A stretch of DNA of 64,000 bases from Thermoplasmata archaeon (GTDB taxonomy: Archaea; Thermoplasmatota; Thermoplasmata; Methanomassiliicoccales; Methanomethylophilaceae): positions 1 through 64,000 of the forward strand of contig SUTA01000005.1 of assembly GCA_015063135.1 (NCBI GenBank), written 5' to 3'. A program made the position numbers and the translations under genes. Shown here in pieces: positions 2,091 through 9,787 of the stretch. The notes beneath the pieces are model-generated. The model searched no databases, was not told where the DNA came from, and was given only the letters and a program-made list of their open reading frames with translations. The first letter of the stretch is position 1. The number at the start of each line of letters is the position of its first letter.

Positions 2091-3108
2091 TGCCCCTGTA
2101 GCGGAACGCCCTGTCCAGGACGAACACCACCGCGATGGCCAGGACGACGCAGACCCCTACCACCTCCAGGATCGCGGCCGGGTCGTACCCCATGACCTTG
2201 AAGGTGTCTATGAGCCCCACGAGGCCGGACGTGCCCATGCCCGCGCCGACGGAGTCGGTGGCGAAATCGAAGATGTAGGCGAACGGGGACAGTACCGCGC
2301 TGGCTATTATCGTCGGCAGCCATATTATCGGCTTCCTGACGATGTTCTTGAACTGCAGCATGCTCGTCCCTATCCCCACGGCTATGATGGATCCAAGGCC
2401 GTTGTCGTGGGCCGTGTGCACCGCGAATCCCAGCATCTGCACGCAGCATCCGATCAGGGCCGCCCCCGCGGCCATCGGGACGTCGCCGATGTTTATGGCC
2501 ACGCAGATCGCCACCGAGCTTATGGGAGCGGTCAGCGCCATTCCCACGGTCACGCCGATTATGATGCACATCGGCAGGGGCGCGATGTCGAAGCACGCCT
2601 CTATGAACCATCCGATGAACAGGGTGACCTGGTGGACGGCGTCCCCCAGCAGGAAGCAGTAGAGCAGCGCCGCGCCGAGGCCCACGAGGGGGACCAGGAC
2701 CAGGTCCAGGGAGGTCCTCTTGAGCTTCGAGAGGGCGAACAGCGACACGAGGGTGCAGACATAGCACGAGAGCGGATCGGAAGCTGTGAAGAACTCCCAG
2801 CTCCCGAAGCTGAACATCATGGTGCCGGCCATTCCGGCGGCCATGAGGGTGACCACCTCGATGCCGGTCTTCTTCAGCGACAGGCCCACGCCGAGGCCTA
2901 TGCCGGCACCCATGAGGCTCTTGACGAGCGCCGCGAACTTGTCGATCTCCTCCAACCCCGGTATATCGGCGAAGACGGAGATGATGGTCCCTATGATCAG
3001 GGTGCCGAAGAGCCCCAGGGCCATGCCGTTCGTCGTCTTCATGACGAAGTCGCGCGCGCTGTGGAACTTCTCGCGGGTGGCCTCTTCCATCGGCCCTCTA
3101 ATCGCCAT
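1966..3108 (-). CDS. PTS_EIIC_2-type integral membrane protein
   Basis: A 380-residue protein with about ten hydrophobic segments. The N-terminal part (MALGLFGTLIIGTII, then glycine-rich GAGIGLGVGLSLKK) matches the PTS_EIIC_2 family, EIIC-like membrane proteins that often occur without other phosphotransferase components. No EIIA, EIIB, HPr or EI gene is nearby, so sugar phosphorylation is unlikely and the transported substrate is unknown. The membrane domain ends near residue 335; the last 40 residues are basic, proline-rich and pass through a hairpin, so the true end may be earlier. Confidence 0.75.
   Translation of the reverse strand: MAIRGPMEEATREKFHSARDFVMKTTNGMALGLFGTLIIGTIISVFADIPGLEEIDKFAALVKSLMGAGIGLGVGLSLKKTGIEVVTLMAAGMAGTMMFSFGSWEFFTASDPLSCYVCTLVSLFALSKLKRTSLDLVLVPLVGLGAALLYCFLLGDAVHQVTLFIGWFIEACFDIAPLPMCIIIGVTVGMALTAPISSVAICVAINIGDVPMAAGAALIGCCVQMLGFAVHTAHDNGLGSIIAVGIGTSMLQFKNIVRKPIIWLPTIIASAVLSPFAYIFDFATDSVGAGMGTSGLVGLIDTFKVMGYDPAAILEVVGVCVVLAIAVVFVLDRAFRYRGIIEDGDFSLKQEPRFGEGIRARGPGPEGMVFGRTRRRPSRW
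2015..2033. terminator. GC-rich hairpin between convergent genes
   Basis: An 8-bp perfect stem GGGCCCGG/CCGGGCCC with a CCC loop. It lies just past the conserved end of the DUF3574 protein and of the opposing membrane protein, where a bidirectional terminator would be expected. There is no T-run. Confidence 0.4.
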
Positions 3109-3121
3109 CCTGATTAAACCA

Positions 3122-4246
3122 TTATCCCCCGCCCGGGTGAGGGAAGGGCCCTCCTCCGGTTTTGGGCCTGAAATGAACCGACCGGATTTTTTGCAGGGTG
3201 TGATGCGAGGTCATCGTCCCGAATAGCTGGATTCGAATGATTGGGATGAGGTGCAGGACCTTCTCTGAATCGGAAACCAGAGGAGGCGGCATGGCTGACG
3301 GTGAAGGTGCCTGTGCTGGGATGCGCCGGATGTCCGCAGGTATCCGTGCCTTGGGCGAGGCCCAAAGCAGAGCATACTGGAAGGGGTTTCGCTGCTTCTT
3401 CAGGACGCGCAGGGCGGCCTTGCCGGCATCGGTCAGCTCGAACCTGCCGCGGGTGCCCTTGGCCGGGTTGATGAAGCCCTTCTCTATCAGGGGCCCGGTG
3501 ACGCAGCGGTTGAACTGCATCCTCTTCTTCTGCTCGTCGGGAGTCTTCGTCTTCTTCTGGTCGGGGACGTAATCCCAGAGGCCCTCCGATTCCAGCTTCT
3601 CGATGTAATCGCGAATCAGGGGCTTGCGGGTCTTCTCATTGACCTCGTCTATCGCCACCAGGTAGTCCAGGTAGTCCCCGTCCAGGATGCTGGGGTCGAA
3701 GGTCTGCACCCTCGTCGGGTACTTCACGGTCCTGTACTGCCCCACGGGGCGGTCGCCGTCGTAGAAGACCTTGCGGTACTCCTCGGGGGTGAGCATCTTC
3801 TCCTCCGCCCTGACCGTGAACGCCACGATGTCGTTGTGCAGCATGCTCGCCATCATGGCCGCCGCGGCGTACTCCGCGCGGCCGGTTGTCAGGTTGACGT
3901 AGATGTCCATGTTGCCCCCGGTGGCCTCCTTCTCCCTGTCGTAGATGCCGAGGACGGCGCGGAGCATGTCGTGGTAGTAGTACACGGGCTCGGAGACCTC
4001 GACAATCTCGGCTGTCGGACGGACCTCCCCGATCCTGCGGACGACCTCATCGTAGAACTCCTGGTAGATCGCCAGGCGGGGGTTGTCCTTCTCCCTGATG
4101 TAATGGATGAGGTAGACCTTGTCGGTCTCGTAGAACTTCACGGGGTCCACGACGGCGGACACCTCCGTGACCACGCATGATACCATAATGCGGGCGCGCT
4201 TCCCAGACCTGGCCGGGCCCCCGCTGACCTCATTTATCTCTGACAT
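3122..4246 (-). CDS. CARF-domain winged-helix transcriptional regulator
   Basis: Residues 18-150 look like a CARF/Rossmann ligand-sensing domain of the HFX_2341/DUF6293 type: a first strand ARIMVSCVV, then KVYLIHY, and a strand-loop NLTTGRAEYAAAAMMASM at 118-135 in the position of the ligand-binding glycine loop. Residues about 195-285 form a winged helix ending FELTDAGKAALRVLKK. CARF domains bind nucleotide second messengers, often cyclic oligoadenylates, but no CRISPR locus is present. A strong GGAGG lies before ATG 4246. A 24-bp sequence and TATA box upstream recur before two nearby operons, which suggests autoregulation. The last 85 residues look non-native. Confidence 0.7.
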   Translation of the reverse strand: MSEINEVSGGPARSGKRARIMVSCVVTEVSAVVDPVKFYETDKVYLIHYIREKDNPRLAIYQEFYDEVVRRIGEVRPTAEIVEVSEPVYYYHDMLRAVLGIYDREKEATGGNMDIYVNLTTGRAEYAAAAMMASMLHNDIVAFTVRAEEKMLTPEEYRKVFYDGDRPVGQYRTVKYPTRVQTFDPSILDGDYLDYLVAIDEVNEKTRKPLIRDYIEKLESEGLWDYVPDQKKTKTPDEQKKRMQFNRCVTGPLIEKGFINPAKGTRGRFELTDAGKAALRVLKKQRNPFQYALLWASPKARIPADIRRIPAQAPSPSAMPPPLVSDSEKVLHLIPIIRIQLFGTMTSHHTLQKIRSVHFRPKTGGGPFPHPGGG

Positions 4247-4315
4247 ATCCTTCCTCCTATCCTAGGTCGGGACGGTGAACCGGTCCCACGATATGCAGTG
4301 CACGATATGGTATAA

Positions 4316-4339
4316 ACCGTGGCATGTTAGCAATGTTAG
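4316..4339 (-). promoter_or_regulatory. CARF-regulon operator, copy 1
   Basis: Read on the minus strand the sequence is CTAACATTGCTAACA, then TG, then CCACGGT, directly followed by the TATA element TTTATA at 4311-4316 of the regulator gene. It holds a direct repeat CTAACA with 9-base spacing. The same 24 bases occur perfectly in reverse orientation at 5395-5418. Confidence 0.65.
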
Positions 4340-4424
4340 TATCGTTATGGGGTCTATTAACCAATCGCTTAACGATGGTTATTATCTCGACATAGCCAGA
4401 CATGAAAAATAATACAATTTTGTA

Positions 4425-5348
4425 TCAACACGGTCCGGCACGACCGCCTCGCGCGGATGCCCCGGCCTTCCTGCGCTCGAGGATCTCGGCGGCGAACGTG
4501 GACCCCAGGATCAGCGCCGCGCCGGCCCATCCGATCCACCCCAGGTCCTCCCCCAGGACCGCCACGCTCAGCATCAGGCCGATGATCGGCTCTATGTACC
4601 CGTAGATGACCGCGGATGACGCGTCCATGTACGCCAGGGACCCGAAGTACAGGGTGAACGCTATCCCCGTGTGGACGACGCCCATCACCAGGAGCAGGAC
4701 TATCGACGCGGCATCGAACCTCAGCTCGCCGAAGTCCACCGTGAGCAGGCTGTATGCCATGACCACCACCGCCGCGACCCCGAGCTGCACCACGGTCCTG
4801 TCGTAGGACCCGATGCTGGTGAGCTTCTTGTTGAACAGCACCATGGCGGTGTAGAACACGGCCGCCAGAACGCCGCAGGACACGCCGTAGGCGTTCATGC
4901 CCTCGACGCCGTCCTGGATTATCCCCGTGACCAGCACGAGGCCCAGGAGGGCCAGCAGGGCGCATCCCAGCTTCACCGGGGTGAGCCTGGTCTTCAGGAA
5001 CACCGGCGCCGCCAGGATGACCATTGCCGGGGTCATGTAGTTCAGGACCGTGGCCACCGACACCTCTATGGACTTGTAGGCCTCAAACAGGAAGAGCCAG
5101 TTCAGCCCCAGGCATATCCCGGAGCAGGCCAGAGTGAACATGTTACCATAGATGTCCTGCTTCGAGAGGCGCGAGCCTGTGAGGTACACCAGCAGCAGGA
5201 TCGTGGCCGCCCCCACGGTCCCGCGGAACACCACTATGATGCTCGCCGGCAGGTCGATGAACTGCGTCATCGTCCCCAGGGTGCCGAAGATGGCCATGGC
5301 CAGGACCATCATGGCCTTGGCGTTCCTGGCACTGACGATGTCGCGCAT
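4425..5348 (-). CDS. EamA-family (DMT) transporter
   Basis: A 307-residue protein with ten predicted membrane helices in two EamA halves of five, of the drug/metabolite exporter superfamily. The internal duplication is visible as VLNYMTPAMVIL in the first half and VIYGYIEPIIGLML in the second, the usual proline-bearing helix. The substrate is unknown. It stands between the CARF regulator and the first small-protein operon, and a copy of the shared operator lies 47-70 bases upstream of its start, so it may belong to the same regulon. Confidence 0.85.
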   Translation of the reverse strand: MRDIVSARNAKAMMVLAMAIFGTLGTMTQFIDLPASIIVVFRGTVGAATILLLVYLTGSRLSKQDIYGNMFTLACSGICLGLNWLFLFEAYKSIEVSVATVLNYMTPAMVILAAPVFLKTRLTPVKLGCALLALLGLVLVTGIIQDGVEGMNAYGVSCGVLAAVFYTAMVLFNKKLTSIGSYDRTVVQLGVAAVVVMAYSLLTVDFGELRFDAASIVLLLVMGVVHTGIAFTLYFGSLAYMDASSAVIYGYIEPIIGLMLSVAVLGEDLGWIGWAGAALILGSTFAAEILERRKAGASARGGRAGPC

Positions 5349-5394
5349 GACCGTGGCATGACGACAGCGACTTAACGGTATCGCTGCACAGGAA

Positions 5395-5418
5395 CTAACA
5401 TTGCTAACATGCCACGGT
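5395..5418 (+). promoter_or_regulatory. CARF-regulon operator, copy 2
   Basis: Identical to copy 1 over 24 bases but facing right. It is directly followed by a TATA-like TATTTAT at 5418-5424, and an ATG lies about 24 bases further at 5443, the spacing of a leaderless archaeal transcript. It is also close enough to affect the divergent transporter gene. Confidence 0.65.
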
Positions 5419-5442
5419 ATTTATCGGACCTCCGCTTAGGAA

Positions 5443-5583
5443 ATGAAGCGCACTTCCGCAGGGAAAAACCACACGGGAATGCTTACGACGCCGGACCGAC
5501 CGGCGGTTACCGAACACCTGCGGGCTCTTCCCGCGGACCGAGTTGAAACCCTTCTGGAAATAACTGCACAAGGTGGAACATGA
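5443..5583 (+). CDS. 46-aa small protein of unknown function
   Basis: A short gene whose ATG lies at the expected transcription start behind TATA box and operator copy 2. Its TGA overlaps the ATG of the next gene (ATGA at 5580), which indicates translational coupling and supports the gene being real. The protein is basic at the N-terminus and ends in a likely helix (RALPADRVETLLEITA). I do not recognise it. Confidence 0.55.
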   Translation: MKRTSAGKNHTGMLTTPDRPAVTEHLRALPADRVETLLEITAQGGT

Positions 5584-6089
5584 AGAAAGAGAAATACACC
5601 ATCAAAGAAGAGGAGGAGATCGACATTTCTGGCAAGGACGCGCGTGTGTCCATGTCGCTCAGGGGGAAGGATCCCGGCTCGCCCGTCCTCACCTTCGAGA
5701 CCGAGGACGGCACCAAGCTGTCCATCGTCATGAGCCGCGAACAGGCCGTGGAGCTCAGGATGTGCGCCATGCGCCCCAGGCTCAAGCAGGATAGGGAGCA
5801 GGAGATCGAAGAGGCCTACGACGGGATGGCGCCCAGCAGGTTCGCCCTGGAGGAGGAGATATCCATCCTCCTGTCCGACGGGATCGGCAGGATGCGCGAG
5901 GAGATCGGCATCGAGGTGGCGCAGTCCCTGCATCTCCCGACGGACCTCAGCATGGCCTGCAGCCCCATGGGCCGCAGGTTCTCCAAGGACGTGGACGAGG
6001 TCCTCGGGGACATGGTCTCCAGCGGCGAGCTGGAGGAAGACTCGGGAGCGTACCGCTCGAAGGCCAGCCGATGGGATCCGACAGGATGA
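5580..6089 (+). CDS. Unknown 169-aa acidic protein
   Basis: A soluble protein of 169 residues without membrane segments. The first 60 residues are likely beta-rich (SGKDARVSMSLRG, LTFETEDGTKLSIVM), the rest helical and acidic. No known family is apparent. It overlaps the gene before it and the gene after it by ATGA, so the three form one tightly coupled operon behind operator copy 2. The partners suggest a role in a regulated complex, but no function can be assigned. Confidence 0.7.
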   Translation: MKKEKYTIKEEEEIDISGKDARVSMSLRGKDPGSPVLTFETEDGTKLSIVMSREQAVELRMCAMRPRLKQDREQEIEEAYDGMAPSRFALEEEISILLSDGIGRMREEIGIEVAQSLHLPTDLSMACSPMGRRFSKDVDEVLGDMVSSGELEEDSGAYRSKASRWDPTG

Positions 6090-6547
6090 CTGCAACGCCC
6101 TCCCTCAGGGGGAGCGCCATCGAAGTGGAGCCTCTGAAGTACGGCCGCGATGAGAAGTACCTCCTGCTGGACCTGAGCCTAGCCGACAACGGCCGGCTCC
6201 CGGCCAGGCTCGAGGACCACAAGGACTGGCCGGAGATCAGCGAATGGATCGGCGGGGTCACGAACAGAATACCCATCACGATCGGCGGCTGCGGGACGGA
6301 CCTCCTCCTGCCGGCCAACAACATGGGCCTGCCGGGCTCCGTCGGATTCATCCGCGGCAACAGATTCGGCATACTGGCGCAGGGGCGCTTCGGGCTCACC
6401 GCGGCCCCTCGGGGCCTGGAGTCGGACCCGGAGGTCCTGGACAGGGTCATGGGCATCGTCACGCAGCATTTCGCCGAGATCAACGGCCACCTGGTGCTGC
6501 TGGTGGACGACCCGGGATATGCTTTCCCCGATGAGCAGAGAGACTAA
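6086..6547 (+). CDS. Unknown 153-aa protein, third gene of operon
   Basis: Start chosen at ATG 6086, which overlaps the TGA of the upstream gene; an in-frame ATG at 6071 is less likely. The protein is soluble, with a glycine-rich centre (TIGGCGTDLLLPANNMGLPG) and a C-terminal strand HLVLLVDDPGYAF. No family recognised. Its TAA lies inside the third operator copy, so transcription of the next operon begins directly at its end. Confidence 0.7.
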   Translation: MTATPSLRGSAIEVEPLKYGRDEKYLLLDLSLADNGRLPARLEDHKDWPEISEWIGGVTNRIPITIGGCGTDLLLPANNMGLPGSVGFIRGNRFGILAQGRFGLTAAPRGLESDPEVLDRVMGIVTQHFAEINGHLVLLVDDPGYAFPDEQRD

Positions 6548-6567
6548 CATCACTAACAGCCCACGGT
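6544..6567 (+). promoter_or_regulatory. CARF-regulon operator, copy 3 (20 of 24 bases)
   Basis: CTAACATCACTAACA, then GC, then CCACGGT. It keeps both CTAACA repeats and the whole CCACGGT end of copies 1 and 2 and differs only in the two spacers. It overlaps the stop codon of the gene before it and lies about 100 bases before the next operon, which has its own AT-rich ATAAACC at 6631 and an AGGAGAAAGGG ribosome site. Confidence 0.6.
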
Positions 6568-6668
6568 AGAAATACCCCCATCGGATACTAGGAAACGCAC
6601 ACGGATCAGCTGAAGAACTGACCGGTGCAGCATAAACCCCTTAGAAAAAAGCACAGGAGAAAGGGATC

Positions 6669-6830
6669 ATGAAGAGATATTTCAGCAGAGACGGCGACTA
6701 CCTCGGGTTCAAGGACTCCGAGGGCAGGTACTTCAGGGCCGACGGCGAGTACGTCGGCTACAAGGATCCGGAGGGCAGGTTCTTCGACTCGAAGGGCGAG
6801 CTCAGGATCAGGGAAGAGAACGATGACTGA
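6669..6830 (+). CDS. 53-aa tandem-repeat microprotein
   Basis: A small gene with a good ribosome binding site (AGGAGAAAGGG) before ATG 6669. The protein is built of a 17-residue unit used twice and a third partial unit: YFSRDGDYLGFKDSEGR, YFRADGEYVGYKDPEGR, FFDSKGELRI. The aromatic-glycine pattern suggests short beta-hairpins, as in repeats that bind a partner protein or ligand. Its TGA overlaps the start of the MCM-like gene, so both are made together. Confidence 0.65.
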   Translation: MKRYFSRDGDYLGFKDSEGRYFRADGEYVGYKDPEGRFFDSKGELRIREENDD

Positions 6831-7884
6831 GATCCCCATGGACGGCGCGGCCTTCGGACCCATGTCCAGGGACCCGGGTATCCACAGCAGGATAGCCGAG
6901 TGCATCGCACCCGGCATAAGGGGCATGGACACGGTCAAGAAGGCCTTCGCCCTGGCCATGTTCAGCGGGAAGGGGAGGCCCGACGGGTACGGAGGGTACG
7001 TCCGCGGGGACGTGAGCGTCCTAGCGGCCGGCGACGTGACCATGGGGTGGTCGTCCATCCTGAGATCAGCGAGCTATCTGTGCCAGGGGTCGGAATACAC
7101 CCACGTCTGGCCATGGTACTGCGCCGGTACCGACCAGGTCGTTAGCGACCTGCCCATTTCGGCGTTCCCCGACGACGGGGGCCTGATGTGCATAGACGGC
7201 ATCGAGATGCTGGACGACGACGTCCAGAAGGGGCTGTCGGACATGCTGGAGACCGGGTTCTACTCGGCCGGGGGGACGCTCTGCAAGGGCGGCCACCCCG
7301 TACTCGCGGTCTGCAACCCCAAGTACAAGCGCTTCATCGAGGAGGAGCCGATGGCGGATCAGCTGGACCTGGACGTCCGGCTCCTGTCCAGGTTCGATCT
7401 CGTCCTGGTATGCACGGACGATTTCGACAACGCCACCGACCTGGAGGTCGCCGAATCCATGCTGGCGGGGGAGATGTGCACCTGGCAGAAGCCGCCCTAC
7501 GATGCGGACACGCTCAGGCGCTACATATCGTATGCCAGGGCCCTCGACCCGGCGATGACCCGCGAAGCATCGGAGGTCCTCAAGGACGCATACCTGGCGC
7601 TCAGGGACCAGATGCGCATATGCACGCCCAGGCAGCTGAACTCGATGATCAGGATATCCAAGGCGTTCTCCAGGATGCGCCTGGGCGGGACGGTGTCGGA
7701 AGGGGATGCGGAGAAGGCCTCGGACCTCATGTTCCGCACGCTGGAAGACATACGTGGCAAGCCCGAGGGCATGATTCCGGGGACGGGTCTCCGAACGGTC
7801 TTGACTCCGTGTAATGCTGAATGGTTACGCGCCATTAACTATGGGTTCCAGATGGCTCATACGCCGCAACCTTTGCGGCGGTGA
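6823..7884 (+). CDS. MCM-like AAA+ protein with degenerate ATPase site
   Basis: The 353 residues align with the AAA+ half of MCM replicative helicases and lack the N-terminal DNA-binding half. Seen: RGDVSVLAAG before the P-loop; GDVTMGWSS at 70-78 in place of GDPGxxKS, with the essential lysine replaced by tryptophan; LMCIDGIEML at 121-130 in place of CIDEFDK, with the catalytic glutamate replaced by glycine; a sensor-1 CNPKY near 164; the arginine finger LLSRFD at 187-192; and a sensor-2 TPRQLN near 262. It therefore should not hydrolyse ATP on its own and may be a regulatory or scaffold subunit. It is coupled to the repeat microprotein and to the nuclease gene. The last 35 residues look non-native. 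Confidence 0.75.
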   Translation: MTEIPMDGAAFGPMSRDPGIHSRIAECIAPGIRGMDTVKKAFALAMFSGKGRPDGYGGYVRGDVSVLAAGDVTMGWSSILRSASYLCQGSEYTHVWPWYCAGTDQVVSDLPISAFPDDGGLMCIDGIEMLDDDVQKGLSDMLETGFYSAGGTLCKGGHPVLAVCNPKYKRFIEEEPMADQLDLDVRLLSRFDLVLVCTDDFDNATDLEVAESMLAGEMCTWQKPPYDADTLRRYISYARALDPAMTREASEVLKDAYLALRDQMRICTPRQLNSMIRISKAFSRMRLGGTVSEGDAEKASDLMFRTLEDIRGKPEGMIPGTGLRTVLTPCNAEWLRAINYGFQMAHTPQPLRR

Positions 7885-9014
7885 AAGCCATGGATGCAAA
7901 CATAGAGAAAGAGGGCATCAGGAACCCGCTCAGGAGGAACCTGAAGGACAGCGTGTTCTCCGACCTGTTCTCGGAGGAATGGTACGCAACTGATCTTGCG
8001 AGGGAGCTCGTTCCGGAGATACCCGAGGGCACCCCTGTGAGTGTGACCAATGTCGGCGGCGTGCTGTCGACCGGTCCGATCCACGACCTGATGCTGATAG
8101 CTGGCGAATGCGCCATCATCGCAGCGGAAGCCCAGTCGACGGACAACCCGAACATGCCCTTCAGGATACTGTTCTACGGGTCGGATGCCCTCGCCGCCAT
8201 GACGCGCAGGCTCGACCTGGATACGCTGGGCAGCACCCGCGCGAAGATACCTAAGTTCCGCGCCTTCGTGATATACACCGGGACCGCGGAGGTGCCGGAC
8301 GTCATGAGGCTGTCGGACAGCTACTCCGAGATCGTCCCGGGAGAGGGCAGCCTGGAGGTGGTCGCCCATGTGATCCATGCGGACAACGCGCCCAGGGGGT
8401 CGAGAGTCCGCGAGTACATCGAGTTCTGCCAGACGGCCGACAGTTGCAGGGATGAGACCGGTGGTGACATGGATAAGTTCGCACACCTCCTCAAGGAGAG
8501 GTGCGAGAAGGCAAATATACTCCAGGACTACCTAATAGAGAGGTGGGTAGAGGTCATGGGATACTACGAGGAGCTGTTCAGCCAGGAGGCGGCCAACAGG
8601 CACATGTGCAAGAACGCCTGGGAAGAAGGCAGGATCGAGGGCAGGGAAGAAGGAAGGGAAGAGGGACTGGCGGAAGGCATGAAGAAGGGACATGCGGAAG
8701 GATGTGCGGAAACAACAGAAAAGGAACGCAGGGAATTCGCGATAAGGCTCCTTGCCATCGGCACTGATCCCGAACAGGTCGCCGAACTCTCGAGACTCAG
8801 TATCGACTATGTCATGGAACTGATGGGTTCCCGGACAAATCGAAACATGAACGGTTCAACCGCCGTTCAACTATGGATGAAGCCTAGGGGCGCCCGAAGG
8901 CGCCCCCGGCATTGTTTTGATCAGAAGATCTTGGTCTTGGCGCCGGAAGCTGCGACGATCTCCGCGTGCCCTCCCTGGAGGGTGAAGAACGCGAACTGCC
9001 AGCCGTTCTCGTAG
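7881..9014 (+). CDS. Rpn/PD-(D/E)XK nuclease-transposase family protein
   Basis: A GTG start overlaps the TGA of the MCM-like gene; ATG 7890 is the alternative. Residues 20-200 carry the Rpn-type nuclease core with D69 and the E83-A84-Q85 motif of the PD-(D/E)XK fold. The C-terminal part has the typical charged repeats (EEGRIEGREEGREEGLAEG) and a final small helical domain ending near residue 317. Rpn proteins promote RecA-independent recombination or act against phage. The frame runs on beyond position 8830 through a GC hairpin and 94 bases into the opposite gene; the native end is probably earlier. Confidence 0.75.
   Translation: MKAMDANIEKEGIRNPLRRNLKDSVFSDLFSEEWYATDLARELVPEIPEGTPVSVTNVGGVLSTGPIHDLMLIAGECAIIAAEAQSTDNPNMPFRILFYGSDALAAMTRRLDLDTLGSTRAKIPKFRAFVIYTGTAEVPDVMRLSDSYSEIVPGEGSLEVVAHVIHADNAPRGSRVREYIEFCQTADSCRDETGGDMDKFAHLLKERCEKANILQDYLIERWVEVMGYYEELFSQEAANRHMCKNAWEEGRIEGREEGREEGLAEGMKKGHAEGCAETTEKERREFAIRLLAIGTDPEQVAELSRLSIDYVMELMGSRTNRNMNGSTAVQLWMKPRGARRRPRHCFDQKILVLAPEAATISACPPWRVKNANCQPFS
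8887..8906. terminator. GC hairpin with CGAA loop
   Basis: Perfect 8-bp stem GGGGCGCC/GGCGCCCC with loop CGAA, followed on the plus strand by TTGTTTTG. It lies between two convergent genes and fits a terminator. Confidence 0.5.
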
Positions 9015-9787
9015 TAGACCTTGGCGATGTCGGGCAGGGCCTCCTTCAGCATGGGGTACAGCCTGGGGTCGTCCGAGAAGACGGCCTTGCCGTCCCACCT
9101 GAGGAACTTGCCCTCGCTGAAGGCGAGGATCTCGCACATGGGATTGTCCTTCAGCTGCTTGTAGACCTCCTTGAAGGTCCCGACGCCGAAGTAGATCCTC
9201 CCATCCAGGTTCAGCTTGAGCCCGAGGACCCTCATCCTGGGCCTGTTCCTCTCGACCGTGGCGAGGGTGAACGTTCCGGCCTGGGAGAGGAAGACGTCGA
9301 TGTACTCCATAGCGGACAGGTCGACCTCGAGCGGAGCGGCCAGCTGCAGGATCCACTTCTTCTCCTCCTCGGTGACCTCGCCGTCGATGGCGCAGACCAG
9401 CAGGCAGAGGAGGATGATGTCCCCCTTCATCTCCTGGCTGATGAGGCCCAGGAGGTCGACCATGGTATCGATTACCTTCCTGTAAGCGCCGGAATCGTCG
9501 AGCCCCATGTCCTTGAATATCTGGACGCCCTCCTCGTAGGTGACGTCCTTCTCCTTCATCTGGTCGAACATGGGCTTGAGGAGCTTGAATTCGCCCTCGG
9601 ACAGCTTGCCGTCGGCGGCGACGGAGGCGAGGATGAACTCCATGTATGCGGACAGCCCGTCCCTGCCGTCTACCATGACCTGGGACAGCTCCTCCATGAC
9701 CCTCACGGAGATCTCGTTGAAGACCTGGTTGAACTGCTGCGGATCCATCTCCGCGAGTTTCTTGCACTGAGCGTCAAAATCGTTCAT
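8921..9787 (-). CDS. TerB-like plus PNPOx-like two-domain protein
   Basis: Start taken at ATG 9787 because a TATA element (TTTATACC on the minus strand) lies about 23 bases upstream; the frame itself is open to 9859. The 288-residue protein has an N-terminal helical half with two repeats of the TerB kind (LASVAADGKLSEGEF and LVCAIDGEVTEEEK, acidic metal-binding signatures) and a C-terminal half (GTFTLATVERNRPRMRVLG to the end) of the flavin-binding pyridoxamine-phosphate-oxidase-like fold. The combination suggests a flavin- or redox-linked stress function. The substrate is unknown. Confidence 0.75.
   Translation of the reverse strand: MNDFDAQCKKLAEMDPQQFNQVFNEISVRVMEELSQVMVDGRDGLSAYMEFILASVAADGKLSEGEFKLLKPMFDQMKEKDVTYEEGVQIFKDMGLDDSGAYRKVIDTMVDLLGLISQEMKGDIILLCLLVCAIDGEVTEEEKKWILQLAAPLEVDLSAMEYIDVFLSQAGTFTLATVERNRPRMRVLGLKLNLDGRIYFGVGTFKEVYKQLKDNPMCEILAFSEGKFLRWDGKAVFSDDPRLYPMLKEALPDIAKVYYENGWQFAFFTLQGGHAEIVAASGAKTKIF

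Follow-up and report, generated by a model that had tools for sequence, protein, structure and literature searches.

A 64,000-nucleotide stretch of the genome of a Thermoplasmata archaeon, an uncultured gut methanogen (Methanomethylophilaceae; GenBank assembly GCA_015063135.1, contig SUTA01000005.1, positions 1 to 64,000), here called the window, carries the gene for a 374-amino-acid (aa) protein that joins a CARF domain to a winged helix, and a 24-base element, CTAACATNNCTAACANNCCACGGT, that precedes this gene and two neighbouring transcription units. Sequence comparisons make it quite probable that this CARF/winged-helix factor regulates itself and some nine further promoters via the element, referred to below as the operator. 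A CARF-linked regulon with its own operator had been proposed in a first-pass annotation of the window, and the proposal is supported by the promoter-locked, non-random placement of the element, by related arrays beside CARF homologues and by a zinc-ribbon gene whose operator switches between genomes. No description of the operator or the regulon was found in the literature searched (open-access full texts).

A probable operator locked to promoters

The element was first described as two perfect copies and one matching in 20 of 24 bases, which the matches bear out: CTAACATNNCTAACANNCCACGGT is exact at all three places (Table 1), and the third copy deviates from the other two solely in four spacer letters. 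Shuffled sequences held a mean of 0.01 matches, and none of 100 shuffles reached three. The window-type operator can be written as CTAACANNNCTAACANNCCACGGT, with CTAACANNN as the iterated 9-bp unit. The assembly (40 contigs, 1.86 Mb in all, 87% complete) holds ten sites that match the 24-mer with no more than three mismatches, against none for the reversed control, and 14 that match its 15-mer core with at most one, against three. Four core-only sites were not counted among the ten strong ones. The operator extends beyond the three transcription units first thought to share it, and the regulon is a dispersed one of about ten sites genome-wide.

A TATA-like hexamer follows all three window copies. 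Over the ten strong sites, an A/T-rich hexamer of this kind starts at position +23 of the core, the best of 27 offsets (mean match to TTTATA 4.4 of 6; next best offset 3.1). As the second unit of the window-type operator lies at +9, the last unit and the TATA are 14 bp apart. This fixed distance is most simply explained if the element is part of the promoter and is read one way.

Shared geometry and changing letters in related genomes

The comparison set comprised 60 related genomes (G, C and L numbers are handles for genomes, contigs and loci). A CARF profile detected homologues in 36 of them (in G056 only at 3.5e-4), the named records being mostly Candidatus Methanomethylophilaceae and related gut metagenome-assembled genomes. 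Phylogenetically, the 27 rows assigned to group A on the basis of neighbourhood are set apart by one branch (93/93). The window protein clusters with six paralogues (98/93), two each from G019 and G009 and one each from G030 and G012, on a long branch and with at most 35% identity. Tandem ATWACANNN units adjoin the group-A CARF genes, (ATAACANNN)4 being an example of a group-A operator, and 23 of 25 array sites examined run into a conserved microprotein of ~50 aa with six invariant columns in 16 sequences.

Scored as a three-unit TWAC array of 9-bp period (at least 14 of 15, within 300 bp of flank), arrays were found beside 27 of the 45 CARF genes in the array table (16 upstream, 22 downstream); among controls, 12 of 567 upstream regions scored as high. 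L080 had too short an upstream flank for scoring. Three ATWACANNN units with up to one mismatch gave 108 overlapping matches in 32 of the 60 genomes, against ten reversed-control matches. CARF and array occur together in 30 genomes, CARF alone in six, array alone in two and neither in 22. A TATA-like hit was found for 39 of 49 group-A arrays (the remaining ten had none in the stretch searched), and in 30 of these 39 the TATA starts exactly 14 bp from where the last unit begins, a spacing common to the window operator and the group-A operators. By eye, the sites in G019, G030, L164 and G013 read alike.

The exact letters of the operator are not conserved above control, and kinship is visible only through the 9-bp periodicity and the TATA spacing. 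The exact window-type core occurs 11 times in this genome and once in the other 59, which hold 14 reversed-control matches; this confinement is as expected, since the window protein is a paralogue without a close orthologue. For the closest paralogue, in G019, three exact sites of the paralogue's own type lie within 3 kb, with no other anywhere in the 60 genomes, and the six G019-type sites found elsewhere with two mismatches are not above control (10).

One of the target genes, encoding a zinc-ribbon protein, is found behind different operators in different genomes. It stands behind the window operator here and behind G019's own type in G019; in L164 it lies directly 3' of CARF behind a GTAAC pair. 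In G013 (87% complete), whose only CARF found is of group A, it follows a group-A operator. In G030 it follows 9-bp CTAA repeats, sharing its operon with a small relative of the protein at C38:2217 (E 2.5e-4). In the three genomes where this was judged, the operator type appears to fit the resident CARF protein. The four loci examined of a second zinc-ribbon subfamily all lack a TAAC-N5-TAA match, L248 having a weaker TAAT-N5-TAAC and L249 a poorly placed start. A zinc-ribbon relative in L233 (G013:C9) carries an in-frame TAG; pyrrolysine use is known in this order.

Candidate defence genes behind the operator

Two of the strong sites precede adjacent gene pairs that PADLOC assigns to PDC-M11A/B and PDC-M24A/B, families which, from PADLOC's label, we take to be phage defence candidates. 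PDC families make up four of 11 scanned non-CARF regulon proteins, against none of 42 background genes of the window (Fisher 0.001, on small numbers and related genes). The scan covered 11 of the 15 non-CARF genes placed in the regulon and 42 of the 46 listed background genes, with E cut-offs of 0.01 and 0.001, respectively; all four PDC matches pass 0.001. Among these 42 genes, which lie outside 3000-9100, the PADLOC models Csa3 and CARF3 weakly match one member each (~1e-5 to 1e-3).

PDC-M11A is present in only one of 31 genus genomes, this one, as would be expected for acquired cargo, and M11A, M24B and the NT5C-type protein resemble phage-borne families (PHROG). In L206 (3717-5150), a single 477-aa protein consists of CARF, a winged helix (below cut-off) and NT5C. 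From the PDC-M11A/B and PDC-M24A/B pairs, the NT5C-type and zinc-ribbon genes and the window operons behind the element, we infer that the output would be defence against mobile elements. The earlier suggestion that the regulon is "perhaps for defence" gains support from the PDC-M11, PDC-M24 and NT5C targets and from the CARF-NT5C fusion.

Related hairpin stretches, GGAAGTCC...GGACTTCC, were seen at L059 ~3930-3700(-), L066 ~7860-7650(-) and L058 ~7983(+). Two of the three sit behind operator copies, their folds beat those of shuffles (z -3.5 and -4.3), and their product may be an RNA or a short hydrophobic peptide. A 77-aa open reading frame (ORF) at a weaker site, McrB-like by eye, has no Pfam match and was not counted.

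The CARF protein and its closest known relatives

In Pfam, the regulator matches HFX_2341_N, the CARF domain (3.9e-10, 40.7 bits, cut-off 30), and the DUF6293_C winged helix (3.7e-7, 31 bits, cut-off 27), and the PADLOC CARF3 match and Foldseek both assign it the Rossmann-like fold of the CARF superfamily. Its structure model (pLDDT 76.7; residues from ~296, about the last 80, disordered) gave 51 Foldseek matches at E <=0.001, with Csm6, Can2 and Cam1 at the top of the list; the TM scores are low, 0.25-0.36 by query length and up to 0.66 by target length (Cam1). The 50 best matches listed include no Csa3 chain. A profile search of PDB sequences returned a single match at E 0.085, which was not used.

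The best-known role of CARF domains is to sense cyclic oligoadenylates made by Cas10. A search of the 36 genomes with CARF turned up no Cas10, the sole match being in G039, which lacks CARF, so that a type III cyclic-oligoadenylate signal is unlikely. The first-pass statement that no CRISPR is present holds at the level of Cas10, which was not found in the 87% complete assembly, other CRISPR types not having been searched; judged by this, the protein would not be part of a CRISPR-linked system that makes cyclic oligoadenylates, as Csa3 is. The CARF domain would rather sense a nucleotide signal of non-Cas10 origin. Next to the CARF gene of G033 (L096), repeats were seen by eye that we take to resemble a Cas12a-type CRISPR array.

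The closest known proteins are HFX_2341 and Csa3. Like the window protein, HFX_2341 of Haloferax mediterranei, the one characterised member of the family, combines HFX_2341_N and DUF6293_C, CARF and winged helix; according to the available part of its description, it is not linked to a CRISPR locus, affects many genes globally and occurs in species without CRISPR-Cas (PMC11434293). That part gives no operator, whereas a 9-bp-iterated promoter element is found here, together with a dispersed set of targets that includes candidate defence pairs, and a single genus holds several paralogues whose operators differ. Csa3a and Csa3b of Sulfolobales are also CARF/winged-helix proteins acting at promoters, Csa3b repressing some genes and activating others (PMC8844856, PMC7480081). 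In the available portions of these papers, Csa3 is CRISPR-associated, binds cA4 and uses palindromic sites, whereas here Cas10 was not found and the operator is a direct repeat. MM_0565 of Methanosarcina mazei, likewise a methanogen CARF/winged-helix protein with wide transcriptional effects, lies beside a type I-B CRISPR locus and was modelled on Csa3a, and no such operator is seen in the available text (PMC7465815). The literature searched revealed no case in which PADLOC's PDC-M11 or PDC-M24 gene pairs are under a CARF-linked operator.

Mode of action and alternative explanations

The CARF protein would act at tandem CTAACANNN units set directly upstream of the TATA, activating from the position of the B recognition element (BRE), just before the TATA; an operator in the BRE place at a fixed distance fits an activator. 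The resident CARF protein is probably the binder of this operator. Alternatively, and less likely than not, the element may be a repressor site, at which the CARF protein occludes the promoter until freed by ligand binding. The element abuts the TATA, where TFB would bind, and HFX_2341 mostly represses, as far as the available text goes (PMC11434293), which also tells against activation. The sites, however, lie upstream of the TATA and not over the start, and at the ten strong sites none was seen downstream of the hexamer.

It seems rather doubtful that the same regulon serves a DNA-damage or replication-stress response, or general functions, instead of an anti-viral one. Such an output would suit the MCM-like gene in the window and the group-A arrays before a PD-(D/E)XK protein (L127), a calcineurin-like phosphoesterase (L149, Mre11-type kin by eye) and SIMPL, DUF4352 and ABC-transporter genes, and in the available text HFX_2341 regulates genes for transport and metabolism globally (PMC11434293). 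The share of PDC proteins among the non-CARF targets, the restriction of PDC-M11A to one genus genome and the likeness of M11A, M24B and NT5C to phage-borne families argue against it.

It is improbable that the regulon is real and bound by another factor (another helix-turn-helix protein or a variant basal factor), with the CARF gene merely one of its targets. This would account for the 18 of 45 CARF homologues without an array by score and for two genomes with arrays in which no CARF was detected, G010 (89% complete) and G017 (66% complete). The operator letters, however, vary along with the CARF paralogue, arrays flank CARF genes far above control, and the CARF genes encode a DNA-binding winged helix. 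A chance origin of the copies, or a dispersed repeat of no regulatory significance, is hardly credible: two copies 1 kb apart are indeed identical, but the shuffle expectation and the reversed control are near or at zero, no likeness beyond the element and TATA position is seen by eye, and strand and spacing are fixed.

Several observations, including the array-less homologues and CARF-less genomes just named, weigh against control by the CARF protein or against a defence role. An operator before a gene marks a member of the regulon and not CARF binding, and the co-occurrence of CARF and array is confounded by descent, since nearly all positives fall in one genus. The homologues without an array include the other (group-B) members of the window clade, the sites in G019 having been found via a different pattern; some group-A homologues lack an array owing to assembly position or divergence. 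The array score is reached by just two of 28 newly fetched loci, L170 and L174. On the side of the targets, the PDC-M24A match is weak, and background genes gave single matches to other PADLOC models. Group-A arrays also precede transporter, SIMPL, DUF4352 and InsA-like genes, which are not obviously defence genes, so that the case for defence, already indirect here, is weaker for the genus. A reading of the ATWACA repeats as replication-origin boxes (by eye, an Orc1/Cdc6-like ORF lies near one, in L058) was dropped because the repeats stand before many genes of unrelated kinds, with their distance to the TATA fixed.

Genes of the window and further observations

ORF calls and Pfam agree with the gene order first described, including the ATGA couplings in the operon of the 46-, 169- and 153-aa proteins and the EamA gene in between, which has no copy of the element in its own direction. 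In the former operon, the first ATG lies 25 bp past the TATA-like hexamer, compatible with a leaderless message. The description of an MCM-like protein with broken ATPase motifs stands up to comparison with the genome's own MCM: the Walker A lysine is gone (GDPGVAKS to GDVTMGWS), as is the Walker B glutamate (CIDE to CIDG), both of which mark an MCM helicase.

A single operon of microprotein, MCM-like and Rpn-type genes had also been proposed. The operator does precede the first two, but the Rpn-like gene is probably a separate module that arrived with its own repeated leader, judging from a 166-bp stretch, running from the 3' end of the MCM-like gene into the first part of the Rpn-like one (7796-7960), that is repeated at G000:C28 ~110661-110825 with 78% identity and suggests a repeated Rpn module. 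One ancestral operon of the three genes was dropped on this ground.

The small proteins, whose company with CARF genes elsewhere had been suggested as a check, are not conserved: in tblastn searches of the loci from L070 on, the proteins of both window operons matched the window only, with the sole exception of MCM itself, which is widespread. The operator letters, not above chance in relatives, and the array-less homologues partly bear out what would speak against the first-pass proposal. Viral-contig scans found no relatives of the MCM-like protein, the 169-aa protein or the CARF alignment.

Table 1 Features of the window locus and operator sites elsewhere in the genome
Feature	Position	Strand	Annotation
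CARF/winged-helix regulator	3122..4246	-	374 aa; Pfam HFX_2341_N + DUF6293_C, PADLOC CARF3 4e-60, structure model and Foldseek
Operator of CARF gene	4316..4339	-	strong site; TATA-like hexamer immediately downstream, about 4311-4316
EamA gene	4425-5348	-	Pfam EamA 1.2e-30
Operator of 46/169/153-aa operon	5395..5418	+	strong site; TATA-like hexamer from 5418
46-aa ORF	5443..5583	+	no Pfam or PHROG family
169-aa protein	5580..6089	+	no family in Pfam, PADLOC or PHROG scans
153-aa protein	6086..6547	+	no family in Pfam, PADLOC or PHROG scans
Operator of 53-aa/MCM-like genes	6544..6567	+	strong site; TATA-like hexamer from 6567
53-aa repeat microprotein	6669..6830	+	no Pfam family
MCM-like AAA+ core	6823..7884	+	Pfam MCM 4.3e-29; without N-terminal and C-terminal parts of MCM
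Rpn/transposase-like nuclease gene	7890 (or GTG 7881) to 9014	+	TIGR01784 2.6e-6, below cut-off; phrog_3300 2.4e-9
Operator of PDC-M24 pair	C29:150723		strong site; DUF6978-like gene (Pfam 24.7 bits, cut-off 29.6) and DUF1828 gene
PDC-M24A (weak)	L058 4770-5351		PADLOC 1.5e-4
PDC-M24B	L058 5351-6184		PADLOC 2.8e-15
Operator of PDC-M11 pair	C40:12180-12203	-	strong site
PDC-M11A	L063 11108-12151	-	PADLOC 1.6e-64
PDC-M11B	L063 10759-11133	-	PADLOC 8.4e-39; weak ASCH match
Operator of NT5C-type gene	C38:221		strong site; deoxyribonucleotidase, phrog_2643, 6.8e-27
Operator of 47-aa ORF	C24:426		strong site; by eye like start of NT5C-type protein
Operator of short protein	C38:2217		strong site
Operator of zinc-ribbon gene	C8:51573		strong site; 124-aa protein
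Operator of hairpin-rich stretch	C29:178908-178931	-	strong site; no clear gene
Core-only site	C32:23187		hexapeptide acetyltransferase
Core-only site	C36:7848		second copy of hairpin stretch
Core-only site	C35:89726		at contig end, no TATA-like hexamer
Core-only site	C24:392		

Transposase-like InsA proteins with a zinc ribbon and a helix-turn-helix were observed behind group-A arrays in L123, L145 and L148 (Pfam) and in L126 and L133 (by eye). A vWA-like gene lies directly 3' of CARF in L205 (by eye) and L207, and a similar gene lies behind a group-A array of G017 (L153, below Pfam cut-offs). In the group-A loci L082, L084, L087, L095 and L097, and similarly in L100, L102, L106 and L107, upstream arrays face away from CARF toward a tRNA gene. 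The C-rich stretch behind these outward arrays folds into three hairpins, with compensatory change at ten of 17 pairs in five sequences and z values of -3.4, -3.8 and -5.1 in three; it had no Rfam match in the five loci scanned, and Rfam at gathering scores returned tRNAs only in the loci scanned. Possibly, this stretch is a small RNA under the same operator.

Implications

Tentatively, and with somewhat less than even confidence, the whole may be read as a CRISPR-independent CARF alarm regulon, in which a family of archaeal regulators, each with its own 9-bp-iterated operator, would respond to a nucleotide signal not made by Cas10 and switch on a dispersed arsenal of defence pairs, a deoxyribonucleotidase (in one species fused to the regulator), small proteins and structured RNAs. 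New cargo would join by acquiring the operator of whichever paralogue is resident, and the regulon would be handed over when the paralogue changes. If this is true, a gut-methanogen genus in which CARF-bearing genomes show no Cas10 would possess a family of CARF factors with a readable operator, making ligand and regulon directly testable. The operator would also give a route to unannotated defence genes in these genomes, with the zinc-ribbon target, the CARF-NT5C fusion and the two candidate pairs as concrete first candidates.

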